A model generated the notes under the pieces. It searched no databases and was not told the DNA's origin. It saw only the letters and a list, made by a program, of their open reading frames with translations. DNA of 64,000 bases from Pseudomonas hydrolytica (GTDB lineage: Bacteria; Pseudomonadota; Gammaproteobacteria; Pseudomonadales; Pseudomonadaceae), in contig NZ_CP099397.1 in assembly GCF_021495345.1 (NCBI RefSeq), positions 5,091,001 to 5,155,000 of the forward strand. Direction: 5' to 3'. The position numbers were made by a program, and so were the translations under genes. This document shows, piece after piece, positions 1-9,973 of the stretch (the first letter of the stretch is position 1; each line of letters starts with the position of its first letter).

Positions 1-995
1 TATGTCATATCCAAAGCTAATTCCCTGCTGCGCTCCTTGCTGCGCTCATCGGCATACATGTCCTCGTTCCGCTCCGCGCAGCGTTGCACGCGATGCATGC
101 CTCTCTCTACCGAATGCTTCAGATAACGCAGCGCGGAACCCGGTATCTTCCCCAACAGGATCGGCTCCACGGTCGGCGAACGGAACGACTCACCCAGCAA
201 TTCGGTAAGCTGCTCGCGCTGACGATTCAGAATCGTCTCGCGCTGTGCGACTTCCGAGGTAGTCACTCCACCGTGCAACTGATGGAAAGAACCTTCACCG
301 GCCAACATGAACGAGCGGGTTCGCGGATGCATGGCCGCCTTACGATACAGATAGAGATTTAGTGCCCCACCCCCAGGCAGATCGAACCGCTCATCGGCCT
401 GGCCGATATCGCGAAATACCTCAGAGTCCAAGAATAGGCAGTTGCACTCCATAAACGGATGAAAGATTCCGTTGGGGTTGGCGCCGCTGAGGCAAGAAAT
501 CTCGAACAGGCGATAGCCGTTGCGCTGCCAGTCGATGCCTTCCAGCAGGCGCTGCTCGTGTTCTTGGCTGTAGCCGCGGCTGAGGTGGAATTGCTGCTCG
601 TGCTCACCGAGGTGATAGCCGGGTACCACTGCCATCGCCTCGGACGTTATTCGTCGCGCCATCAGCGCATACTGCACCACACCCGGCGTGACCATGCGTG
701 CACCATCGATCATCAGACCGATGAATAGCCCCTGGGCCTGAGCAAAGGCAAAGTTGATCGCCGCTGCCGGGGAAACACCTGGCTCGTCACGCAGGAAGTA
801 GCGAAAATTTCCCGGCAGGGCAGCTATCGCCTCGACGTCCATATTTCGCTGTGAGCGGTTCTCCACCACTATCACTTCGTAATCGTCGGCCAGGACACCC
901 TGCTGATAACCTGGGCTCAGGCTGATCAAGGTATTGAGCGCCTGGCGCGGCATATCGTAGACGATCACGATGATCGACAGCAGCGGGCGACTCAT
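1..995 (-). CDS. GT2-like glycosyltransferase, paralogue of the next gene (3' end outside window)
   Basis: An uninterrupted reading frame begins with ATG at 995 and is still open at base 1 (331 codons visible), so the C-terminus is missing. It starts SRPLLSIIVIVYDMP, the typical first strand of a GT-A family 2 fold, followed by YEVIVVENRS. The same blocks occur in the upstream gene: MIDGARM, PGYHLG, YRLFEISCLSG, and GEGSFHQLHGGVTT, so the two are clearly tandem paralogues. A classical DxD is not obvious; the D of MIDGAR sits where the metal-binding aspartate is expected. The ATG overlaps the upstream TGA as ATGA, indicating translational coupling. Probably cytoplasmic, adding a sugar to the locus glycan; donor and acceptor cannot be predicted. 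Confidence 0.8.
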   Translation of the reverse strand, partial: MSRPLLSIIVIVYDMPRQALNTLISLSPGYQQGVLADDYEVIVVENRSQRNMDVEAIAALPGNFRYFLRDEPGVSPAAAINFAFAQAQGLFIGLMIDGARMVTPGVVQYALMARRITSEAMAVVPGYHLGEHEQQFHLSRGYSQEHEQRLLEGIDWQRNGYRLFEISCLSGANPNGIFHPFMECNCLFLDSEVFRDIGQADERFDLPGGGALNLYLYRKAAMHPRTRSFMLAGEGSFHQLHGGVTTSEVAQRETILNRQREQLTELLGESFRSPTVEPILLGKIPGSALRYLKHSVERGMHRVQRCAERNEDMYADERSKERSRELALDMT

Positions 996-1915
996 TGTGG
1001 TTGCACCTTGTCCAGCGAATGGCGAATGAAGCGGTAGACGCTCGGGTGCGGGGAGCCAAACAGGATCGGCCGTACGCTGGGCGGCGCGCGATCATCGCCA
1101 CGCAATGCGCGATCCTGATCGTCCAGCTGCTTGTAAATCACATCACGCTCGGCTTTGCGCGTGCCGGTGGTAACGCCCCCGTGAAACTGGTGGAAGGAGC
1201 CCTCGCCGAACAGCATGTAGAACGGCGTGTCTGGGTATTCCAGCAGGCGCTTGTAGAGGTCCAGGTTGGCGTTGCCGCCGCCGAAGTCGTTGTAGCGCGA
1301 ATCCACTCCCCCCAGCGCCTTCCATTTCCGCACGGACATTGCAATGAAATTGCTTTCGTAATTACTCTGGAAAAAACCGCCCTGACAGGAGCCGCTGAGC
1401 ACCGCGATGTCAAACAGGCGATAGCCGTCCTGCGGCCACTCGATGCTCCTGAGCAGCTCCGCTTCAGCCTCCTCGTCATAGCCTTCGTTGACCGCCACCT
1501 GCTGCAGCTTGTGGCCAATGTGGTATCCGGGGGCCGAAACGGCCGCCTCGGACTCTAGGCGGAAGGCGTCCAGCGCCAGTCTGACGACCCCAGGCGACAA
1601 CATGCGCGCACCATCGATCATGATCGCAACGTGACTGCCACGGGCCTGGGCCGCACCAAAATTGATGGCATGTACCGGCGTGCGCTGAGTCTCCTGGCGG
1701 TGGAAGTAGCGAACGTTGCCGGCATAGCGCATCGCCCGCTCACGCCCTAGGAGCCTGTCCGAGTGGTTCTCGACCACTATCACCTCGTATTCGCGCTCCC
1801 GCACGCCATGCTGGTATTCAGGGCTCAACGAAAGGAGCGTTTTCTCAGCCTGATCCGGCATCCTGTACACGATCACGACGATCGAAAGCCGTGGCTTGCG
1901 GCGAAACAAGGCCAT
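992..1915 (-). CDS. GT2-like glycosyltransferase
   Basis: A 307-residue protein with an N-terminal GT-A type nucleotide-sugar fold (RLSIVVIVYRMPDQAEKTL, then YEVIVVENHS). The family-specific blocks MIDGARM, PGYHIG, YRLFDIAVLSG and GEGSFHQFHGGVTT match the partial gene downstream. The start at 1915 has a GAGGGA ribosome site about 7 bases upstream. It lies 13 bases after the sulfotransferase gene and overlaps the next gene by 4 bases, so the three form one leftward operon. Role inferred: transfer of a sugar during assembly of the glycan exported by the neighbouring ABC transporter. The exact GT2 subfamily is not recognised. Confidence 0.85.
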   Translation of the reverse strand: MALFRRKPRLSIVVIVYRMPDQAEKTLLSLSPEYQHGVREREYEVIVVENHSDRLLGRERAMRYAGNVRYFHRQETQRTPVHAINFGAAQARGSHVAIMIDGARMLSPGVVRLALDAFRLESEAAVSAPGYHIGHKLQQVAVNEGYDEEAEAELLRSIEWPQDGYRLFDIAVLSGSCQGGFFQSNYESNFIAMSVRKWKALGGVDSRYNDFGGGNANLDLYKRLLEYPDTPFYMLFGEGSFHQFHGGVTTGTRKAERDVIYKQLDDQDRALRGDDRAPPSVRPILFGSPHPSVYRFIRHSLDKVQPQ

Positions 1916-1928
1916 GTCCGTCCCTCAC

Positions 1929-2675
1929 TCAGCGCGCATAAGCGCGCAATTGCTGATACATGGTCTGCAAAGCTTTCGGCAGCGGTTGCTCGAGCTGCTG
2001 GTGATGCTTGAGCTCCGCACTGAAGAAGCGCTCATCCTCAAGTGGCTGCAAGCCCAGTTCAAGCAGAACTTGATTGAGCTTGGTGTGCAAGGTCGCCTCG
2101 TCCTCATCGAAGCAGAGCAGAGGGAAGGGCTTCTGCCGGTACAACGCCAACAGACGCTCGTTGTAGGCCGCCCACAGGGCTAGGGCCTGCTCCTCCGGCA
2201 TGCCGCCACGGGCTTGCAACGACTGCACTACGGCGGTGGGGTGGCGGAATATACCGACGAAACGCAGATCGGGAAGCAGCTCTCGCCACCCCTCTACCAA
2301 CAACAGCGAGCGCGGGTCCTTGAAGCCCCAATGCGGGGCTCCTGCGAAATCGGCGATCAGGGCTTGCGCCCGAGCATACTCCTCGGAGGTCCATACGACG
2401 CTGCTCGTAGGGGGATTATCCCAAGCAAAACCGCGGGCGTTCAGCACGGCATCGTTGAACGCAACAATATCGAGGTTCTCCCGATTGCCCTTGAGGTTGT
2501 GCGGGTTCCAAGCACTGTACTTACCGAGTTCCAGCCCGGCCTGCTGCAGGGAACCGGTCAGGAAACTGGTTCCGCTGCGGTGCATTCCCACCACCATGAC
2601 GGGGCAAGGCAAAGGTACAAGCGACGGCGTAACAACTCGTTCCGAGCGCGAAAAAATATTCCGAATGAACCGCAT
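1929..2675 (-). CDS. Sulfotransferase family protein (PAPS-dependent, predicted)
   Basis: A 248-residue protein. Near the N-terminus it carries VMVVGMHRSGTSFL, the phosphosulfate-binding loop of sulfotransferases, and later FVGIFRHPTAVVQSL, which fits the 3'-phosphate-binding motif (Arg followed by Ser about 8 residues on). GFKDPRSLLL is another family block. The frame is open further upstream to 2795, but ATG 2675 has a good ribosome site (AAGAGG, 8 bases away) and begins MRFIRNIFSRSE; the longer version would run into the divergent promoter. It is the first gene of the leftward operon. Predicted to transfer sulfate from PAPS to the glycan; some relatives in O-antigen loci have unproven substrates. 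Confidence 0.8.
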   Translation of the reverse strand: MRFIRNIFSRSERVVTPSLVPLPCPVMVVGMHRSGTSFLTGSLQQAGLELGKYSAWNPHNLKGNRENLDIVAFNDAVLNARGFAWDNPPTSSVVWTSEEYARAQALIADFAGAPHWGFKDPRSLLLVEGWRELLPDLRFVGIFRHPTAVVQSLQARGGMPEEQALALWAAYNERLLALYRQKPFPLLCFDEDEATLHTKLNQVLLELGLQPLEDERFFSAELKHHQQLEQPLPKALQTMYQQLRAYAR

Positions 2676-2800
2676 GTACGCCTCTTGTTCTAGATATAAG
2701 GCTGTTGATATGAAGCGGCGCCCGTCCGCAGGATGCTTGCGGGAGAGCGAGCACATTGTGTTTAAATGACCCAGCCTTTTCAATCTGGTAGCCAAAATCG
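2676..2800. promoter_or_regulatory. Divergent intergenic region between the two glycan operons
   Basis: This 125-base AT-rich gap separates the divergent sulfotransferase and ABC permease genes, so promoters for both operons should lie here. The sequence has AT-rich candidate -10 elements (for example TATAAG near 2695) but no motif that I can assign to a regulator. No JUMPstart element was found. Confidence 0.4.
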
Positions 2801-3556
2801 ATGAACTACGGAGAAATATTGCTGTACGGGGTATATAGCGACTTGCGCACCGAAATCGCGCGGCGCTTCCTCGGTTTCCTGTGGTGGATCATCGAGCCGG
2901 TCATGTATATGGCCGTGTTCTATGTGGTTTTCGGGCTCGCTCTGCGTCAGGGCGGCCCCGACTATGTGCCTTTCTTGCTGTGCGGAATGATCGCTTGGAA
3001 ATGGTTCGATGGCTCGGTCCGCCAGGCCAGTCTGTCGATTCCAATGAACGCTGGGCTGGTTCAGCAGATCTATGTCCCCAAGGGCCTGTTCGCGTTGATA
3101 CAGATCTTCAGCAATACCTTCAAGTTCACCATCGTGCTCCTGTTACTGCTCGGTTTCCTGCTGGCCATCGGCAAAAAGCCCAGCCTGCAGTGGCTGGGGC
3201 TGCTGCCGGTGATTTTGACCCAGCTACTGCTCATCGTCGCCTTTGGCCTGCTCTTGGCCGCGATAATCCCTTTCGCCCAGGACCTGAAGCTGGTGGTCGA
3301 CAACCTGTTGATGTTGATGATGTTCATGTCCGGCATCTTTTTCAGCGCGGATCAGGTACCGGAGAACATGCGCAGCGCATTCGAGTACAACCCTATGGTG
3401 CTGCTGATCAGTGCCTATCGTGACATCCTGCTGCACGCCCAATGGCCACACTGGCAGTCGCTCGGCTATTGCGCAGCGCTGTCGCTGCCTATCCTGGTGG
3501 TGGCGCTGCTGATACTGGCACGCAACGAACGCCGCTACCCCAAACTGCTGTACTGA
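2801..3556 (+). CDS. Polysaccharide ABC exporter, ABC-2 type permease (Wzm/KpsM-like)
   Basis: A 251-residue inner-membrane protein with about six hydrophobic segments. The N-terminal part reads RTEIARRFLGFLWWIIEPVMYM, the signature of O-antigen and capsule ABC-2 permeases, and MSGIFFSADQVPENMR is the usual block before the last helices, followed by YNPMVLLISAYRDILL. It is immediately followed (8 bases) by its ATPase, giving a two-gene exporter. It would move an undecaprenyl-linked glycan across the inner membrane. The ribosome site before ATG 2801 is weak (TGGTAG), but the start agrees with family length. Confidence 0.9.
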   Translation: MNYGEILLYGVYSDLRTEIARRFLGFLWWIIEPVMYMAVFYVVFGLALRQGGPDYVPFLLCGMIAWKWFDGSVRQASLSIPMNAGLVQQIYVPKGLFALIQIFSNTFKFTIVLLLLLGFLLAIGKKPSLQWLGLLPVILTQLLLIVAFGLLLAAIIPFAQDLKLVVDNLLMLMMFMSGIFFSADQVPENMRSAFEYNPMVLLISAYRDILLHAQWPHWQSLGYCAALSLPILVVALLILARNERRYPKLLY

Positions 3557-3564
3557 GACCGCGC

Positions 3565-4320
3565 ATGAACGAGCAGGTAATTCTCGAGGCCCGCAATGTC
3601 GGGCTGTCTTATCGTCAGCGCACCGGCGTCCTGCGCTACAACCATTTTTGGGCATTGGATGATGTCAGTTTTACGCTCAATGCCGGCGAAACACTCGGTG
3701 TGATCGGTGCCAACGGAGCAGGCAAGAGTACGCTGCTGCGCATGATCGCAGGTATCACCGAACCCGATAGAGGCAAGCTCTGGCGCCAGCCCGGCCTGAG
3801 CGCCAGTCTGCTGGCGCTGAGCGTCGGCTTCAAACCCGAGCTATCGGGACGCGAGAACGTAGTCATCGGCGGCCTGTTGCTGGGGCTGCCCCTCAAGCGC
3901 ATCCGCGCGCTCATGGATGAAATACACAGCTTCAGCGAACTCGGCGCATTCTTCGAGCGCCCGGTGGGTACCTACTCCACCGGCATGCGCGCCCGCCTGG
4001 GTTTTGCCGTGGCCATCCACGCCGATCCGGACATCATGCTGATCGACGAAGTGCTAGGCGTGGGCGATGAGAGCTTCAAGCTCAAGTCCCACCAGGCTAT
4101 GCGCGAGAAGATTCGCGCCAAGAAGACCGTAGTGCTGGTCTCCCACAGCATGGAGGCGATTCAATCGCTCTGTGATCGGGTGCTATGGCTTCATGAAGGT
4201 CGCAGCCTATGCTGCGGCCCCACGGACGAGGTCATCAGCGGCTATCTGGAGACCATTCGCATTGCCGTGAAAATGGAACAAGCCAAGGAGCGGGCAGCCA
4301 AACACCAGGCGGTAGCCTGA
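3565..4320 (+). CDS. Polysaccharide ABC exporter, ATP-binding protein (Wzt/KpsT-like)
   Basis: A 251-residue ATPase. It has Walker A GANGAGKST (residues 48-56), the signature YSTGMRARLGFAVA, Walker B IMLIDEVLGVGD and the H-loop VLVSHS. ATG 3565 (MNEQVILEARNVGL) is chosen because upstream codons would overlap the permease gene. The protein stops soon after the nucleotide-binding domain, ending in a short basic tail; the roughly 150-200-residue carbohydrate-binding domain found in Wzt proteins that recognise a terminally capped chain is absent. This is the KpsT-like or short-Wzt form, so export is probably not gated by a terminal modification. Confidence 0.9.
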   Translation: MNEQVILEARNVGLSYRQRTGVLRYNHFWALDDVSFTLNAGETLGVIGANGAGKSTLLRMIAGITEPDRGKLWRQPGLSASLLALSVGFKPELSGRENVVIGGLLLGLPLKRIRALMDEIHSFSELGAFFERPVGTYSTGMRARLGFAVAIHADPDIMLIDEVLGVGDESFKLKSHQAMREKIRAKKTVVLVSHSMEAIQSLCDRVLWLHEGRSLCCGPTDEVISGYLETIRIAVKMEQAKERAAKHQAVA

Positions 4321-4386
4321 GCGCGCCCCTACAACCGAATTCGACAAAAACAAAAGGGCCGATAAACGGCCTTGGTTGAGGTTTAT

Positions 4387-7300
4387 ATGAGTGTTGATCT
4401 GACGAAGGTAATCGTCGTCCTCGGCATGCATCGGAGCGGGACTAGCGTCATAACCCGAGCGCTGGAGGTACTGGGTGTAGAGCTCGGCGACAACCTGATG
4501 CCCGCCGCCGAAAACAACAATGAGAAGGGCTTTTTCGAAGACCTGGATATACACCGTTTCAACACCCGCTTGCTGGCGGAATTGGGCACCGCTTGGGACC
4601 GGCTCGGCGACATCGCCCCTGCCCTCATGCTGGCTCCGGGGTTAGAGGCGTGGCGCAAGGAGGCTCGGCAAATCCTGCACGACAAGCTTTCCGGCACAGC
4701 TCTGTTCGCCTTCAAAGACCCCCAAACTTGCCTATTGCTGCCCTTCTGGCAAACGGTATTGGCCGAACTATCAATCGAGCCCTACTACCTCATCTGCCTG
4801 CGTGACCCCCTGAGCGTTGCCGCCTCGCTGCAAAAGCGTGACGGCATGGCCTCTATGCGCTCACAGCTGCTTTGGGCCCAGTATCAATTGTCCGCCTTGA
4901 GATACAGCGAGAGTACGCGCCGGATACTGGTCGATTATGACGCACTCATGGACCAGCCTGTCCAACAGCTGGCGCGAATCGCCGAGGCGTTCAAGCTCAC
5001 CTTACCCGCAGCCGATGCGCCGCGGATGACAGAATTTGCGCACGACTTTCTCAGCCAGGGACTTCGCCACGCACAACACAATGCCGATCAGTTGGCCAAT
5101 CGCGAGCAGGTGTTGCAGCCCGTCGCCAACCTCTATCAACTGATGCGCCAGATCGCCGCTGATCGCCTAGATTTTCTCGACGACAGCGTAACCCGAAGCT
5201 GCGTCGATCTGACTGCCGCTTTAGGCGAACTGAAACCGCTCAGCCGAGCTTTCGACGAAACCGACCATGAGCGCCAACAGTTGCTCCGCCGTCATGCCAT
5301 TGAGCAGGAACAATTAGGCACCCGGCATGATGAAATGACCCTTCGTCTCAGCGAAGAGCTGGATCGGCTACGCACCCAGCTCGCCACGGCCACAACCGAG
5401 TGCGGCACCGCCTGGCATATGCATGCTCAGGCGGTGCAAGATCGCCACGAACTGGCTAGCGAGCTGAGCAACTGCCTCTTGCGCCAGGATGAGCTGCGCG
5501 CCGAACTCGCACGGGTCTATGCCAGCCGTTCCTGGCGACTAATGCGGCCATTCCGGGGCTTGCGGCGCCACCATCGCAATCCGGCCCTGCTGTTACGCAG
5601 CGTACTGTCGGAAAGCGCCCGCGGCTTGTGGCGACTCATTCCTCTATCCGTCTCCCAGAAACAGGCAATCAAGCAAAGGCTGTTCACTCACGCAGCCCCG
5701 CTGTTCAGCAAAACCCAAGCCTACCGTGACTGGCTATGGAGTCAGGAGCAGGAGTTACAGCCTGCGCCCTCCTCCGTCGGCCGGTTGAAATGGCTCAATG
5801 AACCGATACTGGCAGTTCCTCGCCTAGCCTCGGAGACCCCGGCTGCAACCCCGGTCAAGCTGATTGCCTTCTATTTGCCACAGTTTCATCCGATTCCAGA
5901 AAACGATGCTTGGTGGGGAGAGGGCTTCACCGAGTGGACCAATGTTCGCCCGGCCCTACCTCAGTATGAGGGACATTATCAGCCACATGTGCCCGGCGAC
6001 CTCGGCTACTATGACCTGCTAGATGGACAGACACAGCAGCGCCAAGTCGAACTCGCCAAGCTGTACGGCCTAGGCGGCTTCTGCTTTTACTTCTATTGGT
6101 TCGGCGGCAAGCGTCTACTAGAGGCGCCTATCGAGCGCTATCTCGCGGACGAAAGTCTCGATCTGCCGTTCTGCCTGTGCTGGGCCAACGAGAACTGGAG
6201 CCGTCGTTGGGACGGCCTCGACAACGAGATTCTCATTGGACAGAACCACAGTGCTGAGGATGACTTGGCGTTTATCGCCTATATAGCGCGCTACATGCGT
6301 GACCCTCGCTATATCCGCGTCAATGGCAGGCCGATGCTACTGGTCTACCGCCCTAGCGAACTCCCGGATGCGAAGGCCACCGCATCGCGCTGGCGTACCT
6401 GGTGCAGGGAAAATGGAATCGGTGAGATCTACCTTGCCTACACTCAGTCCTTCGATAACGTAGCGCCCTCACGATTCGGCTTCGATGCCGCTATCGAATT
6501 CCCTCCGAATGCCACACAACCACCGCCGGTTACCGACCGCGTCCGATCCTTACAGGAAGATTTCCGCGGACAGGTCTTTGACTGGAGCATCTACCTCAAG
6601 CGCAGTGGTCAGTACAGCAAGCCTGCCTATAAGCTGTTCCGAGGCGTTTGCCCCTCATGGGACAACACGGCACGTCGCCGCAATCGCGGCACCTCGTTCG
6701 TCAACAGTTCGCCACGCGGTTATCAGCAATGGCTGCTCAATGCCATGCGCGATACGCTGGCGCGCGAATCCAATCCTGATGAGCGTTTGGTGTTCATCAA
6801 TGCCTGGAACGAATGGGCCGAAGGGGCCCATCTGGAGCCAGATCAGCGTCATGGCTATGGGTTTCTCGAGGCCACGCGCATGGCTAGCCTACGCGCCAGC
6901 CTGCCCCAACCGCCCGTATTCCAGCGCGGCGAGCGTCTGGCTGTGGTAATACACGCTTATTATCCGGACGTTCTGCGCGACATCCTTGCTTATTTGCAAC
7001 AAATCGAAGGGGTTGCCTTGCAGCTGTATCTGTCCTGCCCCACAGATAAAGCACGCATAACCAGAGGTCTCTTGGCAGGCAGCCGCCACCCATGGCATTT
7101 GGAGGAAGTTATCAATCGAGGGCGTGACGTACTGCCTTTCATAAAGCTGCTGCCACGCATCATCGCCGACGGCCATAACCTGCTGCTGAAAGTTCACACC
7201 AAGAAGTCCCCACACAGGGACGATGGGGAAACCTGGCGGCGGGATCTCTACGACAAGCTGCTGACCAAAAACGCCATGCGTCAAGCGCTGGATCATTTCT

Positions 7301-7680
7301 CTCGAGCGCCGATTACCGGCATTCTCGGTCCTGCCGGGCACCTGGTTCCGATGAGCTTCTATTGGGGCTCAAACGCACGCCGCGTCGAGGGACTTGCCTG
7401 CCGCCTCGGAGTAGAGCCCGACGACCTCGGCGCACTCAACTTCGTCGCGGGCACGATGTTCTTCGCTCAGACCCGCGCTTTCCTACCATTGCTCAACCTT
7501 GCGCTGGAAGAGGACAGTTTCGAAGAGGAAGCGGGGCAGGTCGACGGCACATTGGCTCATGCCTTGGAGCGCGCCTTCAGTGTTAGCGCCAAAGCGGCAG
7601 GGCTGGAAGTAAGTAGCAGCGAAAGCAGTGTAGCGAATCGGTCCTACGCCTTCGCCAAAACGACGCCGTGTCCTTCATAA
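4387..7680 (+). CDS. Sulfotransferase / coiled-coil / WbsX / RgpF-domain fusion protein
   Basis: A 1097-residue multidomain protein. Residues 1-250 form a sulfotransferase-like domain (VVLGMHRSGTSVI at 11-23; CLRDPLSVAASL near 137-148). Residues about 275-390 are charged and heptad-rich and end with ASRSWRLMRPFRGL, a linker seen in large glycosyltransferases. Residues about 490-830 match the WbsX/GH99-like family (FYLPQFHPIPEND, WWGEGFTEW, FCLCWANENWSRRWDG, FINAWNEWAEGAHLEPD). Residues about 850-1090 match RgpF-type rhamnan synthesis domains (VVIHAYYPDVL, LLKVHTKKSPHR, NFVAGTMFFAQ). ATG 4387 is preferred over an upstream in-frame TTG because GAGG lies 6 bases before it. A small hairpin (AGGGCCG/CGGCCTT, about 4355-4374) precedes it. 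Probably combines glycan extension with sulfation. Confidence 0.85.
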   Translation: MSVDLTKVIVVLGMHRSGTSVITRALEVLGVELGDNLMPAAENNNEKGFFEDLDIHRFNTRLLAELGTAWDRLGDIAPALMLAPGLEAWRKEARQILHDKLSGTALFAFKDPQTCLLLPFWQTVLAELSIEPYYLICLRDPLSVAASLQKRDGMASMRSQLLWAQYQLSALRYSESTRRILVDYDALMDQPVQQLARIAEAFKLTLPAADAPRMTEFAHDFLSQGLRHAQHNADQLANREQVLQPVANLYQLMRQIAADRLDFLDDSVTRSCVDLTAALGELKPLSRAFDETDHERQQLLRRHAIEQEQLGTRHDEMTLRLSEELDRLRTQLATATTECGTAWHMHAQAVQDRHELASELSNCLLRQDELRAELARVYASRSWRLMRPFRGLRRHHRNPALLLRSVLSESARGLWRLIPLSVSQKQAIKQRLFTHAAPLFSKTQAYRDWLWSQEQELQPAPSSVGRLKWLNEPILAVPRLASETPAATPVKLIAFYLPQFHPIPENDAWWGEGFTEWTNVRPALPQYEGHYQPHVPGDLGYYDLLDGQTQQRQVELAKLYGLGGFCFYFYWFGGKRLLEAPIERYLADESLDLPFCLCWANENWSRRWDGLDNEILIGQNHSAEDDLAFIAYIARYMRDPRYIRVNGRPMLLVYRPSELPDAKATASRWRTWCRENGIGEIYLAYTQSFDNVAPSRFGFDAAIEFPPNATQPPPVTDRVRSLQEDFRGQVFDWSIYLKRSGQYSKPAYKLFRGVCPSWDNTARRRNRGTSFVNSSPRGYQQWLLNAMRDTLARESNPDERLVFINAWNEWAEGAHLEPDQRHGYGFLEATRMASLRASLPQPPVFQRGERLAVVIHAYYPDVLRDILAYLQQIEGVALQLYLSCPTDKARITRGLLAGSRHPWHLEEVINRGRDVLPFIKLLPRIIADGHNLLLKVHTKKSPHRDDGETWRRDLYDKLLTKNAMRQALDHFSRAPITGILGPAGHLVPMSFYWGSNARRVEGLACRLGVEPDDLGALNFVAGTMFFAQTRAFLPLLNLALEEDSFEEEAGQVDGTLAHALERAFSVSAKAAGLEVSSSESSVANRSYAFAKTTPCPS

Positions 7681-7748
7681 GCGGTAAGCGGCGCACGATT
7701 GCCACATCCTTAAACAGCGCTCTCTCCATCCCCAAAAGAGGAAGCAGT

Positions 7749-8735
7749 ATGTATAACGAGGCCATTCAGGAAGCGAGCACGGCCCGAGAGCGCTCTTCGG
7801 TTGTACCCAGCCCAACCATTCCGAAGGTTGCGATCCTGCTCGCCTGTTACAACGGCGAGCGTTTTTTAGCCGAACAGTTGCAGTCGATTATTCAACAAAG
7901 CCACGATAACTGGATGATAGTGGCGTCGGATGATGGCTCTTGCGACGGCACCCTTACTCTGTTGCTGCGCTATCAACAGCAACTCGGCGAACACCGACTA
8001 AGGGTGATAGCGGGACCGCGGCGCGGCTTCGTAGCCAACTTCATGTCGTTGGTCAGTACCCCCTTTATTCGTGCAGAGTACTTCGCTTTCTGCGACCAAG
8101 ATGACATTTGGCATATTGATCATTTATCCAAAGCGATAGCGTGGATGCAATCCGCCGATCCGTCTGTCCCGGCGTTGCACTGTGGGCGGACTCGCCTGAT
8201 ACGGGAGGATGGACAACCTTTTGGGGTTTCGCCTCTTTTCCCTCGAGCGCCATCATTCAAGAACGCCTTGGTGCAAAGCATCGCCGGTGGTAACACCATG
8301 GTGTTCAACCACAGCGCTAAGCAATTACTGGAGCGCACCGCCAGTTTGCCTGTCGTCTCTCATGACTGGTGGGCCTATCTCTTGGTCAGCGGTACCGGAG
8401 GTCGGGTTCATTACAGTGCGAGCCCATCTGTAGACTACCGCCAGCACGGAGGCAACCTGGTTGGCTCAAACTCCAGCCTCAAGGACCGATTGCATCGCAT
8501 TCGTCGGATGTTCGCCGGACATTTTCAGAGTTGGAACGAGACCAACATTGAATCGTTGCATCACTGTCGGGAAATGCTTAGCGAAGAAAGCTTACGTCGT
8601 TTGCAAGCATTCGCCAGAGCCCGACGCTCTCCATTGCCATTGCGACTGTGGCGTATCAGCCGTTCCGGGGTGTATCGACAGACCGTCCCAGGTAATCTGG
8701 GACTGTTACTGGCCGCCTTACTCGGCAAGCTCTGA
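7749..8735 (+). CDS. GT2 glycosyltransferase, rhamnosyltransferase-like
   Basis: A 328-residue family 2 glycosyltransferase. It has IPKVAILLACYNGERFLAEQ at the N-terminus, VASDDGSCDGT, and the metal/sugar site FCDQDDIWH, the pattern of WbbL/RfbF-type rhamnosyltransferases; VDYRQHGGN near the C-terminus is also typical of that group. An upstream ATG at 7668 overlaps the previous gene; ATG 7749 is preferred because AGAGGAAG lies 6 bases before it. It is in the same rightward operon as the exporter. Rhamnose as donor is an inference from subfamily resemblance and from the neighbouring RgpF-type domain. Confidence 0.85.
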   Translation: MYNEAIQEASTARERSSVVPSPTIPKVAILLACYNGERFLAEQLQSIIQQSHDNWMIVASDDGSCDGTLTLLLRYQQQLGEHRLRVIAGPRRGFVANFMSLVSTPFIRAEYFAFCDQDDIWHIDHLSKAIAWMQSADPSVPALHCGRTRLIREDGQPFGVSPLFPRAPSFKNALVQSIAGGNTMVFNHSAKQLLERTASLPVVSHDWWAYLLVSGTGGRVHYSASPSVDYRQHGGNLVGSNSSLKDRLHRIRRMFAGHFQSWNETNIESLHHCREMLSEESLRRLQAFARARRSPLPLRLWRISRSGVYRQTVPGNLGLLLAALLGKL

Positions 8736-8753
8736 CCTTTTCAGGAACCAGCC

Positions 8754-9389
8754 ATGAATCAACTTCACACTGCGAGTAATCTTGTCTGGCAGTCGCCTCA
8801 GACCACCCCTGAACATCGTCGCGATCTACTGAAACAGTATCCGGTCACGCTGTGGATGACAGGTTTGAGTGGAGCAGGGAAATCTACCTTGGCCTTTGCT
8901 TTGGAAAAACGCCTGATCAGCCAAGGGCATGCCTGTTTCGTACTGGACGGTGACAATGTGCGTCACGGGCTTAACCGTGACCTAGATTTCTCGCCTCATG
9001 CCCGCACGGAGAATATCCGACGCGTCGCGGAGGTCGCCAAACTTATGAATAGCGCGGGCCTGATCGTTATCAGCTCGTTCATTTCACCCTACCGCGAAGA
9101 TCGTGGTGCAGCCCGCGACATAATAGGCAACGAAGCATTCCTTGAAATACATATCAGTACTGCCTTACAGGACTGCGAACGGCGAGATCCGAAAGGCCTC
9201 TACCAGAAAGCACGAGCAGGCCTGATAAGCGATTTCACAGGAATATCGGCGCCTTATGAACCTCCGCTGACCCCTGCTCTAAGCATCGACACCTCCTCTT
9301 CAACAGTCGATTCCTGCATTGAACGCATGCTGAAGCTCGTAGAACCTTTCCTCATTCGAGATAACGAGAGCAGGTGCGGCGGGTCATAA
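8754..9389 (+). CDS. cysC: Adenylylsulfate (APS) kinase, stand-alone CysC
   Basis: A 211-residue kinase that phosphorylates APS to PAPS, the sulfate donor of sulfotransferases. The P-loop GLSGAGKST is at residues 37-45; DGDNVRHGLN, FISPYREDR and DPKGLYQKAR, all characteristic of CysC, are intact. ATG 8754 follows AGGAACC at good spacing. In Pseudomonas the assimilatory APS kinase is normally fused to CysN elsewhere on the chromosome, so a separate copy as the last gene of a glycan operon containing sulfotransferase domains suggests local PAPS supply for glycan sulfation. It is 18 bases from the preceding gene, so probably cotranscribed. Confidence 0.93.
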   Translation: MNQLHTASNLVWQSPQTTPEHRRDLLKQYPVTLWMTGLSGAGKSTLAFALEKRLISQGHACFVLDGDNVRHGLNRDLDFSPHARTENIRRVAEVAKLMNSAGLIVISSFISPYREDRGAARDIIGNEAFLEIHISTALQDCERRDPKGLYQKARAGLISDFTGISAPYEPPLTPALSIDTSSSTVDSCIERMLKLVEPFLIRDNESRCGGS

Positions 9390-9897: not shown

Positions 9898-9934
9898 TTC
9901 ACCGCTTTGCTCCCTCCCAAGTTGGGACCTTCTG

Positions 9935-9973
9935 AAAGCTCCACCGTCTCTGCTGCGGTGGGGCTTTCGTTTT
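9935..9973 (+). terminator. Rho-independent terminator after first DUF1127 gene
   Basis: A 12-bp stem (AAAGCTCCACCG / CGGTGGGGCTTT, one G-U pair) with a 9-base loop is followed by TCGTTTT. It lies 37 bases after the stop codon. Confidence 0.8.

Follow-up and report, generated by a model that had tools for sequence, protein, structure and literature searches.

Most known examples of sulfated surface glycans in bacteria come from marine species, rhizobia and mycobacteria. Here we describe a putative sulfated-glycan island of Pseudomonas hydrolytica, which lies across the left edge of the analysed window, a 64,000-nucleotide stretch (G000:C1:5091001-5155000) of a 5.29-Mb, single-contig genome (G000), and which combines predicted sulfotransferases (STs), glycosyltransferases, an ATP-binding cassette (ABC) exporter of the Wzm/Wzt kind, the adenylyl-sulfate (APS) kinase CysC and an S1 sulfatase. 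NodH of Sinorhizobium, as here, pairs a carbohydrate sulfotransferase with extra enzymes (NodPQ) that make 3′-phosphoadenosine 5′-phosphosulfate (PAPS); its substrate, however, is a small lipo-oligosaccharide signal, and it has neither Wzm/Wzt nor a fusion to a chain builder. The marine Pseudomonas sp. WAK-1 reportedly makes a sulfated polysaccharide, a term absent from one review that we checked. According to the available text, the exopolysaccharide of P. aeruginosa AG01 was called sulfated from a Fourier-transform infrared band, which is weak evidence (PMC12077034). The available text on Xanthomonas oryzae describes dedicated PAPS enzymes, RaxP and RaxQ, that serve RaxST, an ST linked to an exporter, but RaxST acts on a peptide and its exporter is of type I (PMC4216712).

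Closest in content are two published gene clusters. In Vibrio sp. KMM 8419, a cluster of about 80 genes holds an ABC exporter, sulfotransferases and second copies of PAPS genes (cysC, cysN and cysD), together with kpsDME/kpsT, nucleotide-sugar genes and a glycan structure from nuclear magnetic resonance (NMR), and its authors regard PAPS genes with STs in a polysaccharide cluster as the hallmark of sulfated polysaccharide synthesis (PMC11641403). Cobetia marina KMM 1449 also has PAPS genes, an ST and an ABC exporter in one cluster; its own features are cysNC, cysD, cysQ, a sulfate permease and kpsSC, and its group III capsule is backed by NMR (PMC11766843). Our island likewise places STs, glycosyltransferases and an ABC glycan exporter together, a combination kept at all seven loci where we found it. 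This kind of cluster is already known, because PAPS genes, STs and an ABC exporter have been published together in Vibrio and Cobetia. Unlike the Vibrio case, the island has no cysDN that we saw, its genome has no match to PF05159 and its sulfatase is constant; the word 'sulfatase' does not occur in the available text of either paper (PMC11641403, PMC11766843). The S1 carrageenan and GalNAc sulfatases share PF00884, the Cys-type formylglycine motif and the metal and substrate blocks with the island enzyme, but they act on foreign or host glycans, whereas it sits in a biosynthetic island. Two features, as judged from its predicted proteins, set the island apart: its sulfatase is constant, and one of its ST domains is fused to glycosyltransferase modules that are interchangeable. 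In the open-licence literature, outside which most subscription journals fall, we found no paper on the island or on a sulfatase inside a Pseudomonas sulfated-glycan cluster.

We consider it likely that the product of this mobile island is a surface glycan sulfated in the cytoplasm, exported by Wzm/Wzt and partly desulfated by an exported S1 sulfatase. A sulfated, exported glycan had been proposed in a sequence-only reading of the window, and it is now supported by gene content, PAPS-type motifs, predicted fold and a co-inherited sulfatase. In the proposed mechanism, PAPS would be made by CysNC with help from the local CysC; the glycosyltransferase GT2c and the WbsX-RgpF module of a fusion protein would build a chain, which the ST domain of that fusion would sulfate as it grows. 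GT2a, GT2b, a methyltransferase and the separate ST would supply the constant part of the glycan, possibly its cap or a linker, and the sulfated glycan would leave through the Wzm/Wzt ABC transporter. The exported sulfatase would then remove part of the sulfate outside the cytoplasm, for trimming or sulfur recycling. The analysis itself establishes gene content, motif conservation, predicted folds, co-inheritance and chromosomal site; each catalytic step, the sequence in which the steps occur, the acceptor, and the sulfatase's site of action and substrate are predictions. The features are listed below, the first four in genome coordinates and the others in window coordinates, with lengths in amino acids (aa).

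G000:C1:5086322-5088211, minus strand: S1 sulfatase (PF00884)
G000:C1:5088231-5089034, plus strand: 2OG-Fe(II) oxygenase (family search)
G000:C1:5089025-5090158, minus strand: acyltransferase 3 (family search)
G000:C1:5090158-5090913, minus strand: methyltransferase (Methyltransf_24/TylF; family search)
1..995, minus strand: GT2-like glycosyltransferase a (GT2a), 331 aa (Pfam PF00535); the last base of its stop codon lies just left of the window
992..1915, minus strand: GT2-like glycosyltransferase b (GT2b), 307 aa (Pfam PF00535)
1929..2675, minus strand: separate ST, 248 aa (Sulfotransfer_3, PF13469, 33.9 bits, cut-off 27)
2676..2800, no strand: divergent intergenic region between the operons (gene coordinates)
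2801..3556, plus strand: Wzm-like ABC-2 glycan exporter permease, 251 aa (PF01061, ABC2_membrane)
3565..4320, plus strand: Wzt/TagH-like ATPase, 251 aa (PF00005, ABC_tran)
4387..7680, plus strand: fusion protein, 1097 aa, with ST-like N-terminus, middle region, WbsX and RgpF (orthologue start)
4387..5121, plus strand: N-terminal ST domain of the fusion (alignment, structure-profile search, predicted fold)
5860..6876, plus strand: WbsX domain of the fusion (PF14307, 453.9 bits)
6925..7602, plus strand: RgpF domain of the fusion (PF05045, 102.9 bits)
7749..8735, plus strand: GT2 glycosyltransferase c (GT2c), 328 aa (PF00535, 65.9 bits)
8754..9389, plus strand: CysC, adenylyl-sulfate kinase, 211 aa (PF01583, APS_kinase)
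9933..9969, plus strand: strong terminator-like hairpin, a 15-pair stem then TTTT, 544 bp past the cysC stop codon (consensus match only)

Both ST domains retain the invariant GMHRSGTS and R-x-P...S blocks of the PAPS type (28 and 26 aligned sequences), and in both alignments (A1 and A2) the residues expected to bind the donor do not vary even between distant phyla. The separate ST exceeds the PF13469 gathering score and has the 5′-phosphosulfate-binding (5′-PSB) and 3′-phosphate-binding (3′-PB) motifs and a predicted ST fold. The fused domain has the same two motifs and predicted fold, aligns with the stand-alone ST and, in a profile search of solved structures, gave 15 matches, every one a sulfotransferase. 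For the predicted models of both domains, the nine best structural matches were sulfotransferases, several of them bound to 3′-phosphoadenosine 5′-phosphate. The second ST-like domain that the sequence-only reading saw in the fusion is thus borne out by alignment, structure-profile search and predicted fold, and the comparison with PAPS-bound structures that it proposed yields a predicted PAPS-sulfotransferase fold with PAPS-type residues retained.

Positions 1-9389 of the window hold eight genes in two divergent operons, all open frames with the Pfam families first named for them, which confirms the original inventory of an ABC exporter, glycosyltransferase-type proteins, an ST, a fusion and a stand-alone CysC. 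The starts of the separate ST, Wzt, the fusion and GT2c were set by orthologue starts and give shorter genes than the open frames (1102 aa for the fusion frame). By GC and gene content, the locus is cut by the window edge and runs about 4.7 kb further left; this leftward extension, suggested in the same reading, brought in the S1 sulfatase. The locus is poorer in G+C (0.564 outside the window, 0.579 in positions 1-9389) than positions 10001-64000 (0.669) and the genes on its left side (0.626). Beyond the sulfatase on that side come the pyridine nucleotide transhydrogenase genes, which we identified from their sequence by eye. The intergenic region has one promoter-like match, a weak one at 2783-2755 of the minus strand; the promoter scan gave fewer such matches than shuffles did.

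To define the distribution of the island, 398 Pseudomonas genomes were searched for orthologues, with STs listed at E<=1e-25. ST orthologues occur in seven of them (G000, G269, G075, G139, G028, G354 and G215; 357-554 bits) and sulfatase orthologues in the same seven (661-1461 bits); only two other sulfatase matches were found at E<=1e-40, at 179 and 160 bits. The sulfatase, oxygenase, methyltransferase, GT2a, GT2b, GT2c, ST, Wzm, Wzt and fused ST domain are present at every locus, and the acyltransferases differ. Full-length relatives of the fusion protein occur in few genomes. Its WbsX-RgpF part is present at five of the seven loci; in G269 a pair of GT2 domains takes its place, and the G354 fusion ends instead with RgpF and a CDP-glycerol glycerophosphotransferase (Glyphos_transf) domain. 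Identity across loci is 83-92% for the methyltransferase, 72-91% for GT2a and 41-89% for the fused ST domain. Because the methyltransferase and GT2a are highly conserved, the fused ST is much less so, and the fusion C-termini and acyltransferases vary, we read the predicted glycan as a constant part plus an exchangeable chain. The ST-RgpF-glycerophosphotransferase fusion of G354 (L180:8980-14384) is followed by what appears by eye to be a cytidylyltransferase-like gene; together the two suggest a sulfated glycerol-phosphate polymer.

The island sits between pntB and DUF2388/DUF7844 genes in six of the seven genomes and at another site in G075. In a comparison of this site across 57 relatives, both flanks lay on one contig in 31 genus genomes. 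The distance between flanks was 1.5-4.0 kb in 27 of these and larger in G000 (16.1 kb), G028 (20.8 kb), G013 (31.9 kb) and G027 (7.8 kb), the last two of which carry other genes. As a description only, the identity between ST orthologues correlates with the identity of the sulfatase (r 0.75, 21 pairs) and of Wzm (r 0.82) but not with that of pntB (r 0.08, 15 pairs). Island identities that correlate among themselves and not with pntB are the pattern expected of a mobile island. Beside the G075 copy (L135:5832-9180) lie, by eye, DprE1/DprE2/UbiA-like genes for decaprenyl-phosphoryl-arabinose.

In the exporter, Wzm/KpsM models matched the permease weakly, below their cut-offs, and the top NCBIfam matches of the ATPase, TagH and galactan Wzt, were also below theirs. 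This ATPase stops after the nucleotide-binding domain, without a C-terminal carbohydrate-binding extension. No protein of the G000 genome matched PF05159 (KpsC/KpsS-type), for which the controls in Escherichia coli and Bacillus subtilis were positive, and a WecA-family protein (PF00953, Glycos_transf_4) is encoded at a locus near 1.93 Mb (L006:19174-19998), which gives the combination of the ABC-dependent O-antigen type, Wzm/Wzt at the locus with a WecA-type initiating transferase in the genome. Since a KpsC/KpsS-type protein was not found and a WecA-family protein is present, an O-antigen-like route fits better, as a prediction, than a group 2/3 capsule.

Several observations weigh against a sulfated, exported and partly desulfated glycan. 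Linkage alone could give the same co-occurrence of sulfatase and ST, because linked genes are co-inherited even without joint function, and the locus has no sugar-nucleotide genes. The fused ST domain had no Pfam match at E<=0.001 and missed the PF13469 cut-off of 27, as did its relatives in G269 (26.4 bits) and G354 (24.3 bits). The likeness of the ST folds is at superfamily level, with 14-17% identity, and does not tell which acceptor is used. CysC is present at three of the seven loci (G000, G269 and G075) and missing at four. A stand-alone CysC lay near 5/19 loci with an ST-fused protein and 2/20 without (Fisher p 0.24); with four more of the seven island loci, the counts were 7/23 and 2/20 (Fisher p 0.14). 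Neither difference is significant, and an ST domain is thus no clear predictor of a neighbouring stand-alone CysC.

The window CysC is, by its matches, a predicted APS kinase, scoring 212.6 bits against PF01583 (cut-off 21.1) and 224.4 against the NCBIfam apsK equivalog domain TIGR00455 (cut-off 138.7) and aligning full-length with solved APS kinases such as 3uie, with the conserved blocks all kept. A search for a further cysNC, as the sequence-only reading advised, found a CysNC-type frame of 635 aa and another stand-alone CysC at 1.939 Mb, bringing the APS kinases of the genome to three. It is quite possible, although we lean the other way, that the same sulfated glycan is made with CysC as a passenger, all PAPS coming from the housekeeping CysNC and none being needed from the local enzyme. 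The four loci without CysC and the two other kinases in the genome fit that view. It is opposed by the intact cysC frame starting 18 bp past GT2c, by the 71-75% mutual identity of the three island CysCs (none other is as close in the compared loci) and by the extra APS kinases near STs across the genus. With three APS kinases in the genome, the supply of PAPS is not tied to the window cysC, whose predicted kinase is an optional booster. The earlier idea that the locus has its own PAPS supply thus comes down to an intact APS kinase and is weaker beyond it: we saw no ATP-sulfurylase gene (cysD/cysN) in the listed frames, most island loci have no CysC, and the genome encodes CysNC and a third APS kinase at other sites.

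The sulfatase scores 163.2 bits against PF00884 (cut-off 25), and the DD, C-x-P/A-S-R (CSASR in G215), GKWH, PHTP and SDNG blocks of S1 sulfatases are invariant in its seven orthologues. By eye, the signal segment is followed by a lipobox-like Cys in five of the seven, which makes these five lipoproteins by sequence; those of G000 and G269 have a signal-like segment without one. PF03781, the formylglycine-generating enzyme family, which also includes other enzymes, matched at four places in the genome (best 198 bits). One PF03781 gene (G000:C1:5164941-5165714) lies about 10 kb right of the window end. We count the sulfatase as part of the sulfated-glycan system because its close orthologues occur only with the ST among the 398 genomes, which makes it look like a member. 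That it instead scavenges outside sulfate esters and merely shares the island seems unlikely to us: its closest solved structures by sequence are sulfatase 6bia and the carrageenan and GalNAc sulfatases, the latter two acting on foreign polymers, and secreted Pseudomonas sulfatases usually serve sulfur scavenging, but its close orthologues were found only in the seven ST genomes, and it is kept while acyltransferases, CysC and fusion C-termini change.

We think it improbable that the STs modify something other than a polysaccharide, whether a lipid, a small molecule or a protein tyrosine. The closest solved folds to the ST models are tyrosylprotein and olefin-synthase/curacin sulfotransferases, and RaxST with RaxP/RaxQ sulfates a peptide according to the available text (PMC4216712), yet one ST domain shares its polypeptide with glycosyltransferase domains, in several different combinations, the other is set between two GT2 genes and a glycan exporter, and the locus has no precursor-peptide or lipid-building gene. 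That the ST domains are relics, able to bind glycans but no longer to sulfate them, as the weak Pfam match of the fused domain and its predicted function might suggest, is very improbable given their invariant donor-binding residues.

A sulfated, exported glycan remains the reading that we favour, and a more specific form of it is tentative. Sulfation may be written and erased, with an ST built into the chain builder, the glycan type switched by swapping the C-terminal modules of the fusion (WbsX-RgpF, GT2-GT2 or RgpF-glycerophosphotransferase) and the constant exported sulfatase trimming or reclaiming sulfate.

Sulfation genes extend beyond the island. PF13469 matched in 58 of 149 Pseudomonas genomes, and each of the 58 also has at least one extra APS kinase, that is, one of non-CysNC length or high score, among the matches listed. 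With a distance of 15 kb and all 150 APS-kinase rows among the matches listed, PF13469 lay near 27/87 high-scoring extra kinases, 14/17 other mid-scoring kinases of about 186-358 aa and 0/46 CysNC-length frames, the ST-to-kinase count being a lower bound. These numbers suggest that an ST with an extra APS kinase is common in Pseudomonas and, with the Vibrio and Cobetia clusters, they make the label 'best candidate for a new system', given in the sequence-only reading, an overstatement. The CysCs of about 186-358 aa often lie about 9-10 kb from a Sulfotransfer_3 protein (for example, G019:C1:140920-151198), a widespread Pseudomonas locus. Many other stand-alone CysCs lie, by eye, in O-antigen or lipopolysaccharide-core loci, and some have no glycan gene nearby. 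At L116, L118, L119 and L120, in O-antigen-type neighbourhoods, a stand-alone CysC is immediately followed by an FAD/NAD(P)-binding-like protein (about 460 aa), and a single-sequence search found no ST match.

G000 itself has a second, unlinked candidate sulfation locus (L006; G000:C1:1928001-1948000) with a stand-alone CysC, a UDP-GlcNAc 2-epimerase, a UDP-sugar dehydrogenase, GT4s, a Sulfotransfer_3/1 protein and a heparinase II/III-like protein; three neighbours have no Pfam match, two of them with ST-like N-termini by eye. A different locus (L106-L109; G028, G013, G075 and G139) pairs a second CysNC frame with a Sulfotransfer_3 protein, adjoined by a small PF00884 sulfatase-fold protein and, by eye, a polyketide-synthase-like long frame (families checked in G028).

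The constant sulfatase suggests that bacteria may edit the sulfate on their own coat after export, much as animal cells edit heparan sulfate after export. If sulfation is indeed written and erased, surface charge would be tunable, or the coat would serve as a sulfur store. A fused ST domain whose chain-building partners change would offer a route to new polysaccharide sulfotransferases together with their substrates.

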